Source of the DNA: Nocardioides okcheonensis
Lineage (GTDB): Bacteria; Actinomycetota; Actinomycetes; Propionibacteriales; Nocardioidaceae
DNA: 64,000 nucleotides
Assembly: GCF_020991065.1 (NCBI RefSeq)
Contig: NZ_CP087710.1
Span: 2,170,001-2,234,000, forward strand
Reading direction: 5' to 3'
In this document: piece after piece, positions 60,498 to 64,000 of the stretch
Numbering within the stretch: the stretch's first letter is position 1
How the letters are laid out: every line of letters begins with the position of its first letter
Translations under genes and position numbers: made by a program
Notes under the pieces: model-generated
Databases searched by the model: none
What the model was told of the DNA's origin: nothing
Seen by the model: only the letters and a program-made list of their open reading frames with translations

Positions 60498-60851
60498 TCA
60501 TCCCCAGCCGAGGGCGTGCAGGCGGGCGTCGTCGAGGCCGAAGTGGTGCGCGACCTCGTGCACCACCGTGATCCGCACCTCCTCCTCGAGCTCCTCGACG
60601 GAGTCGGCGACGTCGAGCAGCGGGGCACGGAAGAGCAGGATCCGGTCGGGCAGGAACCCCGCGTGGTTGGCGGGCCGCTCGGTGAGGGCGAGCCCGTCGT
60701 AGAGGCCGAGGAGGTCCGGGTCGTCGGCCGGCGCATCGGGCTCGACCAGCACCACGACGTTCTCCACCAGCCGCGCCAGCTCGTCGGGCAGCTCGTCGAG
60801 CGCACGCTCGACCATCGCGTCGAAGGAGGCGGCATCGAGGTCGACCGGCAT
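60498..60851 (-). CDS. Small zincin-like metallopeptidase
   Basis: A 117-aa protein of the DUF1025/zincin-like group: HEVAHHFGLDDARLHALGW gives the HExxHxxGxxD zinc site near the C-terminus. The rest is acidic and short. Substrate unknown; such proteins are widespread in actinobacteria. It starts at ATG 60851. Confidence 0.9.
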   Translation of the reverse strand: MPVDLDAASFDAMVERALDELPDELARLVENVVVLVEPDAPADDPDLLGLYDGLALTERPANHAGFLPDRILLFRAPLLDVADSVEELEEEVRITVVHEVAHHFGLDDARLHALGWG

Positions 60852-60909
60852 GCCTCCAGCCTAGGGAGCGCCCCCGAACCAGGGCCGCGCACCGACCCCG
60901 GAACGCAGG

Positions 60910-60937
60910 AGAGGGAGAGCCTGGCGGCTCTCCCTCT
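60910..60937 (-). terminator. tRNA operon terminator
   Basis: A perfect 12-bp stem (60910-60921 with 60926-60937) around a 4-nt loop, 11 nt beyond tRNA-Asp on the minus strand. Confidence 0.75.
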
Positions 60938-60948
60938 TCATGACTCTG

Positions 60949-61022
60949 CGACCCCGACGGGACTCGAACCCGCGGCCTCCGCCGTGACAGGGCGGCGCGC
61001 TAACCAACTGCGCTACGGGGCC
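60949..61022 (-). tRNA. tRNA-Asp(GTC)
   Basis: A cloverleaf of 74 nt on the minus strand: acceptor GGCCCCG/CGGGGTC, D-arm GCGC-x9-GCGC, anticodon loop CTGTCAC, T-arm GCGGG-TTCGAGT-CCCGT, discriminator G. It follows tRNA-Glu by 85 nt. Confidence 0.96.
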
Positions 61023-61107
61023 AGGTTGTGCTTCCTGCGAAGCGGTGGAACTGTAACCCATGCTCGCGGCCGACCACCAAATCGGGGTCGACACCCGGTC
61101 CGGGTGG

Positions 61108-61180
61108 CACCCCCAACCGGATTCGAACCGGCGCTACCGCCGTGAAAGGGCGGGGTCCTGGGCCGCTAGACGATGGGGGC
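61108..61180 (-). tRNA. tRNA-Glu(TTC)
   Basis: A 73-nt cloverleaf on the minus strand: acceptor GCCCCCA/TGGGGGT, anticodon loop CTTTCAC, T-arm CCGG-TTCGAAT-CCGG, discriminator G. A following CCA (61105-61107) may be encoded or coincidental. It is the first gene of a Glu-Asp pair. Confidence 0.96.
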
Positions 61181-61213
61181 CAGCCCGCCCGGGAGACCCG
61201 GTCGGACGCGCCC

Positions 61214-61219
61214 AGCATA
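61214..61219 (-). promoter_or_regulatory. Candidate tRNA promoter -10 box
   Basis: TATGCT on the minus strand, about 34 nt before tRNA-Glu. The -35 region is unclear. Confidence 0.3.
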
Positions 61220-61337
61220 GGGGTTGCGGGGTGGGACGTCCCAACCAAACCCCCGCTCGTGCCCCCGCCCGGCGGGGCGGGGGAAGGGAGAAGATTTCGA
61301 CCAGTTGTCCGGATTGACCCCCCAGACACCCCCTGAC

Positions 61338-61748
61338 ATGACTAGCCTTCACCACGTGAGCAGCGCGTCTCGGCAGTTGCACTTCCTCGTCGTCGACGAC
61401 AACGAGGACATTCGTGACGTGTTCTCCCGCCTGGTGGAGCGCGCCGGCCACGCCGCCGCGACCGCCGAGGACGGACAGGCTGCCGTCGAGCGTCTCCAGG
61501 AGGAGAGCTTCGACGTCATGCTCCTCGACCTCACCATGCCGCGCATGAACGGCGTGGAGGTCGTCCGCTGGCTCCGGGAGCACCCTGCGGTCGCCCCGAC
61601 CATGAAGGTCGTGGTGATCAGCGCCTGGGCCGGCGAGCACCGAGCCACCCTGCAAGAGCTCGGTGTGGACAACGTGATGCAGAAGCCACTGCGCATCCAG
61701 CAGCTGACCGACCTCATCACCGAGACGCTACGCACGGTGGATTCCTGA
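61338..61748 (+). CDS. Receiver-only response regulator
   Basis: A 136-aa single receiver domain: FLVVDDNEDIRDVFSRLVERAG, phospho-Asp in VMLLDLTMPRMNG and Lys in MQKPLRIQQL. No DNA-binding domain. A GTG at 61356 preceded by TAGCCT seven bases upstream could be a leaderless start (130 aa). It lies before the peptide-P450-kinase genes and may pair with the histidine kinase at the window edge. Confidence 0.9.
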   Translation: MTSLHHVSSASRQLHFLVVDDNEDIRDVFSRLVERAGHAAATAEDGQAAVERLQEESFDVMLLDLTMPRMNGVEVVRWLREHPAVAPTMKVVVISAWAGEHRATLQELGVDNVMQKPLRIQQLTDLITETLRTVDS

Positions 61749-61847
61749 CCCATCCCTGAACGCTCGTCCGGGCCAGAGACTTCAGCGTGGCGGCAATCGC
61801 ACGCCGGCACCCGCAGGTGTGCACCAACCCAACCCCTGGAGAACACC

Positions 61848-61940
61848 ATGATGAAGCGCATCCGCACCCACCTCGACACCAAGCGCGCCGCCACCCAGAT
61901 GCAGGCGGTCTACGTGTGGCGTCCCGCGCCCCCGCGCTGA
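61848..61940 (+). CDS. 30-aa peptide, putative P450-modified RiPP precursor
   Basis: A 30-codon gene starting ATG 61848 (a second ATG follows directly) with GGAG 6 nt upstream. 29 of 30 codons end in G or C, a clear coding signature. The N-terminal part is basic (KRIRTHLDTKRAAT); the C-terminal part QAVYVWRPAPPR carries Tyr22 and Trp24 two residues apart. It sits 37 nt before a P450 gene. Small aromatic C-termini next to a P450 are the hallmark of biaryl-crosslinked RiPPs (biarylitides, atropopeptides). The function is inferred and the product is unknown. Confidence 0.6.
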   Translation: MMKRIRTHLDTKRAATQMQAVYVWRPAPPR

Positions 61941-61952
61941 TCGACGACGTGA

Positions 61953-61971
61953 GGCCCCACCCCGTGGGGCC
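61953..61971 (+). other. Hairpin between peptide gene and P450 gene
   Basis: An 8-bp perfect stem GGCCCCAC/GTGGGGCC with a 3-nt loop. It could reduce read-through so that the peptide is made in excess of the P450. Confidence 0.6.
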
Positions 61972-61977
61972 CGCACC

Positions 61978-63087
61978 GTGACGCACGTGGGCAGCGCCGA
62001 GTCGGCCGGTGGCCGGCTCGGCGCTGTCCTCGCCCTGCCTCGTTCCGGGCTCGCGGCGCTCGGTCCGCACGGACCGTGGGTGGCCACCACGCCCGCACTC
62101 GCCAAGCGGGTGCTGACCGAGCCGGACGCCTTCGACTTCCCCGGGGACGTGAGCCGCAGCGGGGACCTCTCCGCGAGCCGCGGCGACACCCGTTCGGGCC
62201 ACCTCGGCTTCGCACCGCTGGACGCGGACGCGGTCGCGCGCGGCGCGGCGCTCTTCACCACCGAGTGGGACGCCGCCTGCGCCGACCACGAGCGCACCGC
62301 GCCCGGCTCCGCCTACGACGCGATGGTCATGCTGCGCCTGCCGGTCGCGCTCGCGACCTGCGCTGCCGTGCTGCCGGAGGCCTCCGACGCGCAGCGGCGG
62401 GTCGTGGCCGACCGGGTCCTGGCGTGGATCGACGCCCTCGGCCCGGTGATCGCGGCCCGACGCCCGCCCTCGCGCTGGAGCCGCGTACGGCGCGCCGAGG
62501 AGCGCGCCCGCCACGCGCTCGACGACACGCTGCTGGGTGTCCCCGGCCTCGTGGGGACCCCCCAGCAGGTCGCCACCATGCTGGCCGCCGGCATCCAGGT
62601 CCCGATCGCGGCCGGCGCGTGGCTGCTGGCCTGGCTCGCCGACCACCCGACCGGCCTGGTCGACCCCGTCCACGCCGCGTGGGAGACCGTGCGCCTGACG
62701 CCCCCCACCTGGGTGACCGCGCGGCAGGCGGTCCGCGACTGCGAGCTCGACGGGCAGCGCGTCCCCGCAGGCGGTCTCGTGATGGTCAGCCCGTTGCTGC
62801 TCGGCCGACGACCCGACCTGGTGCCCGGGGCGGCCGACGACCTGTCCCGCTTCGTCCCCGAGCGCTGGGACGACCCGTCGCGGCGACCCGGCGCCTGGCT
62901 CCCGTTCGGCGCCGGTCCGCACGCGTGCCCGGGCCGCAACCTGGGGCTCGCGATGCTCGTCCGGCTGGCGGGCTGGGGCGTCCGGCACGAGATCACCCTG
63001 CGCGAGCCCGTGAGAATCGACCAGAGCCGGGGCATCGCCCCGGTACCGTTCCGTATCGACGTCGCGCGGAGGGAGGTGTCGCCGTGA
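61978..63087 (+). CDS. Cytochrome P450 (atypical I-helix)
   Basis: A 369-aa P450. The heme loop is FGAGPHACPGR (Cys about 317) and the K-helix ETVR is at 236-239. The I-helix region AAGIQVPIAAGAW (about 203-215) lacks the usual acid-alcohol pair AGxxTT, as in some P450s that form crosslinks rather than hydroxylate. The N-terminus is short and there is no membrane anchor. GTG 61978 gives a normal soluble bacterial P450. It is coupled to the following kinase by GTGA. Confidence 0.9.
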   Translation: MTHVGSAESAGGRLGAVLALPRSGLAALGPHGPWVATTPALAKRVLTEPDAFDFPGDVSRSGDLSASRGDTRSGHLGFAPLDADAVARGAALFTTEWDAACADHERTAPGSAYDAMVMLRLPVALATCAAVLPEASDAQRRVVADRVLAWIDALGPVIAARRPPSRWSRVRRAEERARHALDDTLLGVPGLVGTPQQVATMLAAGIQVPIAAGAWLLAWLADHPTGLVDPVHAAWETVRLTPPTWVTARQAVRDCELDGQRVPAGGLVMVSPLLLGRRPDLVPGAADDLSRFVPERWDDPSRRPGAWLPFGAGPHACPGRNLGLAMLVRLAGWGVRHEITLREPVRIDQSRGIAPVPFRIDVARREVSP

Positions 63088-64000
63088 TCGAGCACCCTGC
63101 GCTCCAGGTCGTCTCCGGCGCGCCCGTCTCCGGCGACGGCGCCGCTCTTGCGCGTCGGATCCTCGACGGGGACGGCAGCGTCGCGGAGTCCCTCGAGATG
63201 GTGGCCCGGCACCTCCTCACCGACCCCCGCGTCGAGGTCGTGGTCGGCGCTCTCACCGTCTTCGCCCCCGACGACCGATCGGGCTGGGTGCAGCTCGGGG
63301 GGCGCGCCTGGATCCGGGAGTGGGCGCGTCCGGGCTCGGGGTTCTCCGCGCTGCCGCCCCCGGACGCGGGGCCCGAGGCCGCCCTCAGCATGCCGTGGCT
63401 GTCGGGCCTCGCCCGCAAGGACACCGTCGTGATCGTGGACCGCGAGCTGCTCCCGCCCGAGGCGGACGTCGACCGTTCCGAGCTGAGCCGGTTCGGGGTG
63501 CGCAGCCTGGTCGCCTCGACCCTGCTCTCGCGCGGCGAGATGTTCGGCAGCCTGTCGGCGATCAGCCTCGAGACGGGACCCTGGCCCGAGGAGATCGTCG
63601 AGGACGTACGCCTGCTCAGCGCCGCGATCTCCTCGCGGATCACCCTCGAGCACTCCCGCCGCGCGCTGGCCGAGGCGATCGACACCGGCACCGAGGCACA
63701 GCTCGCCTACCAGCAGTTCTTCGGCGCGGTCGGCCACGAGCTCCGCACGCCGCTCGCCGCCATCGTCGGCTACACCGAGGTGCTGATGGACGACGCGGCC
63801 GAGCAGCCCCAGGACCCGGTGTCCGCGGCGCTCCTGCGCGACGGGCCCGTGATCCTGCGCGCCTGCGACCAGCTGGTCGCGGTCGTCGACAGCCTGCTCG
63901 GCGCCGGCCGCACCATCGCGGCCGACGAGCAGCGCCAGGACGTGTGCGTCGCGGACGCGGTGGCCGACGTCCTGCACTGGCACCGGACCCCGGCTCGCAA
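63084..64000 (+). CDS. GAF-type sensor histidine kinase, 3' end outside window
   Basis: At least 305 residues are visible. The N-terminal part (about 20-195) contains a GAF-like sensor (LEMVARHLLTDPRVEVVVGALTVFAP, later SLVASTLLSRGEMFGSLSAI). The HisKA box is AVGHELRTPLAAIVGYTEVL (about 218-237); the catalytic domain is cut by the window end. GTG 63084 overlaps the P450 stop. With the upstream receiver protein it probably forms a signalling pair controlling or serving the peptide/P450 unit. Confidence 0.85.
   Translation, partial: MIEHPALQVVSGAPVSGDGAALARRILDGDGSVAESLEMVARHLLTDPRVEVVVGALTVFAPDDRSGWVQLGGRAWIREWARPGSGFSALPPPDAGPEAALSMPWLSGLARKDTVVIVDRELLPPEADVDRSELSRFGVRSLVASTLLSRGEMFGSLSAISLETGPWPEEIVEDVRLLSAAISSRITLEHSRRALAEAIDTGTEAQLAYQQFFGAVGHELRTPLAAIVGYTEVLMDDAAEQPQDPVSAALLRDGPVILRACDQLVAVVDSLLGAGRTIAADEQRQDVCVADAVADVLHWHRTPAR

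Follow-up and report, generated by a model that had tools for sequence, protein, structure and literature searches.

Toward the end of the window (the whole 64,000-nt stretch of Nocardioides okcheonensis DNA that was analyzed), four genes are arranged in the order receiver, small peptide, cytochrome P450, and cytosolic GAF histidine kinase (Table 1), an order common to all 58 loci that we compared. The unit starts at 61356 and extends beyond the window, to approximately 64412. The initial annotation had drawn the locus from 61848 to 63087, which cuts the unit short. It had also described a minimal locus and considered the flanking receiver and kinase genes unusual, a view that has to be given up, since the two genes accompany the peptide and P450 genes without exception and belong to the unit in all 58 loci.

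Table 1. Features of the cassette and its borders, in window coordinates
Feature	Position	Strand	Remarks
Zincin-like metallopeptidase	60498-60851	-	PF06262; borders the cassette
tRNA-Asp/tRNA-Glu	60949-61022 and 61108-61180	-	border the cassette in the window
Stand-alone receiver (response regulator)	61356-61748	+	130 aa; PF00072, E 1.6e-25
Shine-Dalgarno GGAG of the peptide gene	61838-61841	+	window sequence
Putative precursor peptide gene	61848-61940	+	30 aa; basic leader, then Tyr22-Val23-Trp24-Arg25-Pro26
Intergenic hairpin	61953-61972	+	folds in the window
Cytochrome P450	61978-63087	+	369 aa, short form; P450 fold; PF00067, E 1.5e-18 (Pfam)
Conserved RNA hairpin	61992-62026	+	16 bp, 3-nt loop; within the opening codons of the P450
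GAF-HisKA-HATPase histidine kinase	63084-64000, past the window to ~64412	+	442 aa; PF00512, PF02518

The peptide gene begins with ATG at 61848, ends with a stop codon at 61938-61940, and comprises 30 codons; its product in the window is MMKRIRTHLDTKRAATQMQAVYVWRPAPPR. The first description of this gene was accurate: it is preceded by GGAG, ends 37 nt before the P450 start codon (GTG at 61978), and has G or C at 29 of 30 third codon positions. Since the surrounding 3 kb has a GC content of 74%, the last property alone carries little weight. The translated ORF also contains the previously reported Tyr22 and Trp24 in the C-terminal VYVW. Directly after the kinase gene, beyond the window end, lies a tRNA-Phe gene. 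In the region 60800-64000, Rfam at gathering scores returned two tRNAs only and no known RNA family.

The putative precursor peptide in related genomes

Relatives of the P450 were found in 58 of 215 same-genus genomes, including the source genome, with one copy in each and identities down to 43% in the table of matches, and a small ORF is located just 5′ of the P450 at all 58 loci. The initial annotation had let its case depend on the conservation of such a frame beside related P450s and had suggested looking for conserved Tyr and Trp in the homologous C termini; both were observed at every locus. A permissive scan directly 5′ of the P450, for ORFs that start with ATG and carry [YFWH].[WYFH] among their final 18 residues, detected an ORF at 56 of the 58 loci, each with Tyr-x-Trp. 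The remaining two were read by eye: the ORF of L095 has the same form, and that of L105 starts with GTG.

Tyr and Trp are present with i,i+2 spacing in all 58 precursors, and the next residue is Arg in 56 and Val in 2. The peptides were picked with the pattern Y.W[RV], which makes the Arg count and the full Tyr/Trp invariance partly circular, though Tyr-x-Trp less so, because the looser scan had already given this motif in 56 loci and the other two were read directly. Nine different residues occur between Tyr and Trp, and Pro follows the Arg/Val position in 52 of the 58, the usual motif being Tyr-x-Trp-Arg-Pro. The leader has a net charge of +2 to +7 and a recurrent Arg/Lys pattern (58 precursors). 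Furthermore, leader residues were conserved in an alignment of 56 of the 58 sequences, from which the duplicate L061 and L095 were left out. A simple scan detected a GGAG- or AGGA-type motif 5′ of the peptide gene in 53 of 58 loci.

Of the 215 genomes, a profile of the peptide matched exactly the 58 that carry the P450, at E ≤ 2.1e-7, values that refer to the sequences from which the profile was built. Two weak matches, near 0.005, were located at a second place in one carrier and in one noncarrier. In 22 loci with 31-residue precursors, the nonsynonymous/synonymous ratio was 0.68 in frame versus 0.95 and 1.66 in the other frames. In the same loci, Tyr, Trp, and codon positions 1 and 2 of Arg25 were fixed and the third positions of Arg25 and Pro26 varied. 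Coding-frame constraint on the peptide has the right direction and a modest size, the latter a point against the mechanism proposed below. As judged from the sequence comparison, the tiny gene beside the P450 is real and more than a chance frame.

One genome, G020, yielded six matches to the peptide profile, half of them at the end of one contig and half at the beginning of another. Each unit measures 89 bp, stop and start codons overlap (TGATG), and all complete units read FYSWR. The two contig ends share an exact overlap of 88 nt, and therefore one unit was possibly counted twice; a further first unit is interrupted by N. G020 carries at least five distinct tandem precursor genes, and its receiver gene is located on the first contig, before the array.

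These tandem copies also bear on a different reading of the small ORF, in which it would be the leader peptide of an attenuator, its Trp codon and the hairpin would control P450 expression, and the peptide would not be a substrate. A short ORF with a Trp codon is indeed located ahead of a strong hairpin at the P450 start. Nevertheless, we consider an attenuator very improbable, chiefly because of the G020 array, as at least five tandem copies would be unexpected, and because of the conserved leader residues. Additionally, the motif contributes a single Trp codon, a series of control codons is absent, and third codon positions vary where the amino acids are fixed (Arg25-Pro26). RiPPs in general derive from a ribosomal precursor with a leader and a modified core; observed here were the conserved leader, the invariant Tyr and Trp, and the tandem copies in one species, and assignment of the peptide as a putative RiPP-like, P450-modified precursor is well supported, the modification itself being a prediction.

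The P450 and the hairpin at its start

In an alignment of the 58 P450 relatives, which reach down to 42% identity, ExxR (E236, R239), F310, G313, the heme Cys317, and G319 are invariant. With ExxR and the Cys heme signature, the protein belongs to the cytochromes P450. Its I helix reads AAGIQVP, and the acid-alcohol pair, already reported missing from the window sequence, has given way to Gln207-Val208, of which Gln207 is shared by all 58 relatives and Val208 by nearly all. In the absence of this pair, the oxygen chemistry of the P450 may be unusual or weak, a point that we count against the mechanism proposed below.

Beyond the genus Nocardioides, similarity to the P450 is mostly confined to the heme region, and for this reason we do not group it with any known RiPP P450. 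The best NCBIfam match was ApyO, with 62.5 bits versus a cutoff of 525 and in the heme region only. The matches listed in a structure search were general P450s, with P450Blt (8U2M) not among them, and the matches listed in the sequence and structure searches included no P450Blt-like protein; the two enzymes may nevertheless be kin. Among the listed structure or family matches, none was named an atropopeptide P450.

A ribosome-site motif was found 5′ of the P450 start, as chosen, in 7 of 58 loci. In several more distant loci (L091, L093-L096, and L098-L106), the P450 frame is open across the end of the peptide gene, and an in-frame CTG overlaps the TGA stop codon of the peptide. No ATG, GTG, or TTG start was present in frame within 130 nt upstream in L083, L084, L100, and L101, and the P450 start codon is therefore uncertain there.

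The unusual I helix would also suit a scheme in which the peptide stays unmodified and serves as a small protein partner, e.g., a regulator binding to the P450 or the kinase, and the P450 is a heme sensor that feeds the kinase. In line with this scheme, an invariant Gln207 replaces the acid-alcohol pair, and the GAF kinase is cytosolic. Furthermore, the end of the P450 gene and the beginning of the kinase gene share 4 nt in 38 of 57 measured loci, the window among them, when the codon nearest the P450 stop is taken as the kinase start. We regard a heme sensor with an unmodified partner as improbable, however, since a fixed aromatic i,i+2 pair with a free middle residue looks like a chemical target rather than a binding face, and the heme-binding and ExxR residues are invariant.

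A hairpin had been noted between the peptide gene and the P450 gene. Such a structure does fold in the window (61953-61972, probably the one meant), but among four loci compared, a similar one was found in the nearest relative only; the conserved hairpin lies inside the P450 codons. In 58 gapless sequences (57 of them distinct), 91.4% of the 912 cells of this second hairpin were paired, and slid registers paired at ≤51%. Both sides were changed in 70 cells, compared to 19.7 ± 3.2 in shuffles. For example, in L106 the codon CTC is changed to CAC and the opposite arm is altered to match. RNAalifold, which is more cautious, drew seven pairs, four of them changed on both sides. In the window, the 35 nt fold with an energy of -34.6 kcal/mol; over the 58 loci, the median is -31.7 and the range -14.5 to -37.5. 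Pairing in the register used was poor in L093, L095, L096, and L098, which counts against the proposed mechanism. As a caveat, coding constraint acts on the 3′ arm, but the 5′ arm changes along with it.

A DNA operator was considered and rejected. G-U cells were present in 17 sequences at one pair and in 30 at another; so many G-U cells are compatible with a helix in RNA, whereas they disrupt a palindrome in DNA, and we therefore prefer the RNA reading. The strong hairpin, together with the usual absence of a P450 ribosome site, would hold the P450 and the kinase below the level of the precursor, the likely outcome being much precursor and little P450 and kinase.

Distribution, genomic site, and signaling genes

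In wider draws of genomes, matches were restricted to a single genus each time: P450 relatives were found in 32 of 198 genomes at the family level (1 of 26 genera), 30 of 245 genomes at the order level gave a match (1 of 37 genera), and a profile of the 58 P450s matched 7 of 296 genomes at the class level (1 of 114 genera). A scan of named genomes, in which 80 of 134 loci were kept, gave 39 near full-length relatives at ≥45% identity, of which 38 were titled Nocardioides and one was an Actinomycetota MAG; the other 41 kept loci match mainly the heme region. Nocardioides zhouii and N. alpinus are examples of cultured carriers. In addition, 457 proteins were retrieved at E ≤ 1e-10, and among the 120 listed, those with an organism name were from Nocardioides; one of the 120 is labeled Nocardia in one source and Nocardioides in another. 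On this evidence from sequence searches, the four-gene cassette is a possession of the genus Nocardioides.

Within the genus, matches to the peptide profile, the P450, and the kinase coincide in 58 genomes. With a threshold of E ≤ 1e-60, relatives of the kinase were found in 59 of 215 genomes, i.e., in these 58 and in G200, a 69% complete assembly in which the contig ends 6 nt from the start of the match, at residue 40. As the contig ends inside the kinase gene, the P450 gene would fall off it. The kinase gene follows the P450 gene in all 58 loci. Receiver relatives are present in 57 of 58, and the 58th (G020) has its receiver on a neighboring contig. Pairwise distances of the receiver, the P450, and the kinase correlate at 0.89-0.91, as expected if the genes are inherited together. 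Such co-inheritance of kinase and peptide should not be taken as proof that the two bind to each other.

The site of the cassette could be followed by a tRNA scan of 50 of the 58 loci. Of these 50, 33 have tRNA-Glu and tRNA-Phe on either side of the cassette; of the remaining scanned loci, 9 have a tRNA-Arg within the 19 kb retrieved and 8 have no tRNA there. In the source genome, the distance from tRNA-Glu to tRNA-Phe is 3,283 nt, room for four genes and little else. In 11 of 16 cassette-free genomes of the genus, the same tRNAs are 100-242 nt apart, and in G012, a carrier with its cassette elsewhere, they are separated by 1,212 nt. The comparison of occupied and empty sites indicates that the unit gained or lost there consists of receiver, peptide, P450, and kinase.

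The kinase and the receiver have the hallmarks of a two-component pair. The kinase combines HisKA and HATPase domains, and its H-box HELRTP, with the His, is retained in 58 of 58 loci; the receiver has the phospho-acceptor Asp, and D15, D58, and K110 are retained in 57 of 57. The highest hydropathy over 19 residues in the kinase is 1.48 (residues 256-274, close to where the HisKA domain ends), and accordingly no membrane span is seen. A Pfam search of the receiver gave no output domain and no DNA-binding domain above the cutoff; a receiver that apparently lacks an output domain counts against the proposed mechanism.

Some kinase matches deviate from the single intact gene. Three carriers have a second kinase relative: L078 (G089) has two tandem copies of the cassette kinase, approximately 1127-3898 nt after the P450 start, and in G125 (C1:2218769-2219956) and G118 (C1:1864493-1865821), more distant relatives are located elsewhere in the genome, at places where a second P450 or peptide match is absent. 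In L088 (G191, a 61% complete assembly), the match is split into two pieces, and in G036 (L096), G118 (L094), and G169 (L093), it reads through one TGA. These cases could reflect a match past the stop codon, an assembly error, or a decayed copy.

Two-component pairs often control peptide clusters. The locus could accordingly be an ordinary P450-RiPP locus for a secreted small molecule, in which the pair just acts as the production switch that many bacteriocin clusters have. That precursor plus one P450 make up the characterized atropopeptide loci, according to PMC11450843, would agree with a secreted product. However, the interval between the flanking tRNAs is too short to hold a gene for export, proteolysis, or immunity as well; a DNA-binding domain is absent from the receiver, and no membrane segment is visible in the kinase; and the four genes never separate in 58 genomes. 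We consider a secreted product with a production switch unlikely.

Known peptide systems and proposed mechanism

Biarylitides have a five-residue precursor encoded by an 18-bp gene (PMC13417212), and for P450Blt, a Tyr-X-Trp cross-link and the I-helix pair Glu238-Ser239 were reported (PMC10929621). Like the biarylitide systems (P450Blt, BytO, and myxarylin), the cassette has a tiny gene near a P450 and an aromatic pair at i,i+2. A Tyr-x-Trp motif with an adjacent P450 is present in 58 of 58 loci, and the target would be shared with P450Blt (PMC10929621), the cross-link being predicted here. In contrast to the biarylitides, the precursors are 24-31 residues long at all 58 loci, with starts that were set by rule and are uncertain, most of all in L095, and consist of a leader, the motif, and a short tail; a kinase and a receiver are constant; and the Glu-Ser pair reported for P450Blt is missing from the Nocardioides P450.

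With the atropopeptides of the tryptorubin type, the cassette shares a leader-bearing small precursor, one P450, and an aromatic C terminus. Their leader contains a KSLK motif or a near variant (PMC11450843); the pattern [KREP][SP][LR]K matched 0 of our 58 precursors. A Trp at core position two is a further mark of the class, in a numbering that depends on the cleavage site. PMC11450843 names proteases, transferases, oxidoreductases, and P450s as frequent partners and does not name kinases, whereas a kinase is the constant partner here. One defining feature of each class was tested and found absent, and on this basis we assign the cassette to neither. Thus, of the first interpretation, the RiPP-like precursor stands, but the claim that its layout is just that of biarylitides and atropopeptides does not.

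The aminopyruvatide P450 ApyO, which links Trp to Tyr in a WLY variant, acts on an aromatic-x-aromatic motif near the precursor end, with a nearby Arg/Lys required (PMC13192836). The Nocardioides precursor similarly has aromatic-x-aromatic near its end, but its near-invariant Arg follows the aromatic pair, which it precedes in the ApyO system, and unlike there, no MNIO was found among the cassette proteins scanned.

Judged by title and the start of the abstract, no paper among the matches listed describes this cassette; as subscription papers on P450-RiPP mining were covered to a small extent, an earlier description may exist. A search for Nocardioides together with RiPP, P450, and precursor peptide found no literature, and "Nocardioides" (or its stem) is absent from the main texts of PMC11450843, PMC13417212, PMC13192836, and PMC12352619.

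By analogy, the cassette may work like a P450 that cross-links a small ribosomal peptide, and the constant kinase and receiver set it apart. The constancy of these two genes and the lack of genes for export, proteolysis, and immunity suggest that the product has a signaling role. We lean toward a mechanism in which the P450 modifies or cross-links Tyr-x-Trp, the hairpin limits P450 and kinase, and the product signals through the kinase and receiver. The P450 would recognize the basic leader and oxidatively modify Tyr-x-Trp(-Arg-Pro) at the C terminus; a cross-link between the Tyr and Trp side chains, with a loss of 2 Da, is the most probable product. The modified peptide would act with the co-encoded pair, most probably as a signal, either inside the cell or released locally, that is read by the GAF kinase and passed to the receiver, from which some output would follow. 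A redox partner, a protease, and an exporter were not found within the cassette, which we count against this mechanism.

More tentatively, and with less confidence than in the mechanism as a whole, the cassette could be self-contained and intracellular: the P450 would make a Tyr-Trp cross-linked ligand, the dedicated GAF kinase would be its receptor, and the stand-alone receiver would be phosphorylated. Cross-linking would then perhaps occur only when oxygen or reductant allows. If true, this would be a P450-made RiPP with its own receptor. With kinase and receiver genes beside precursor and P450 in each of 58 genomes, a signaling role is directly testable. The P450 lineage, whose sequences differ from those of the P450s named in the searches, would add to the possible cross-linkers of ribosomal peptides.

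We also considered a defense island and rejected it. PADLOC gave 0 matches for the P450 and the kinase and three for the receiver (PD-T4-6 with E 1e-9, PDC-M60B, and SduA), which probably reflect shared receiver-like domains.
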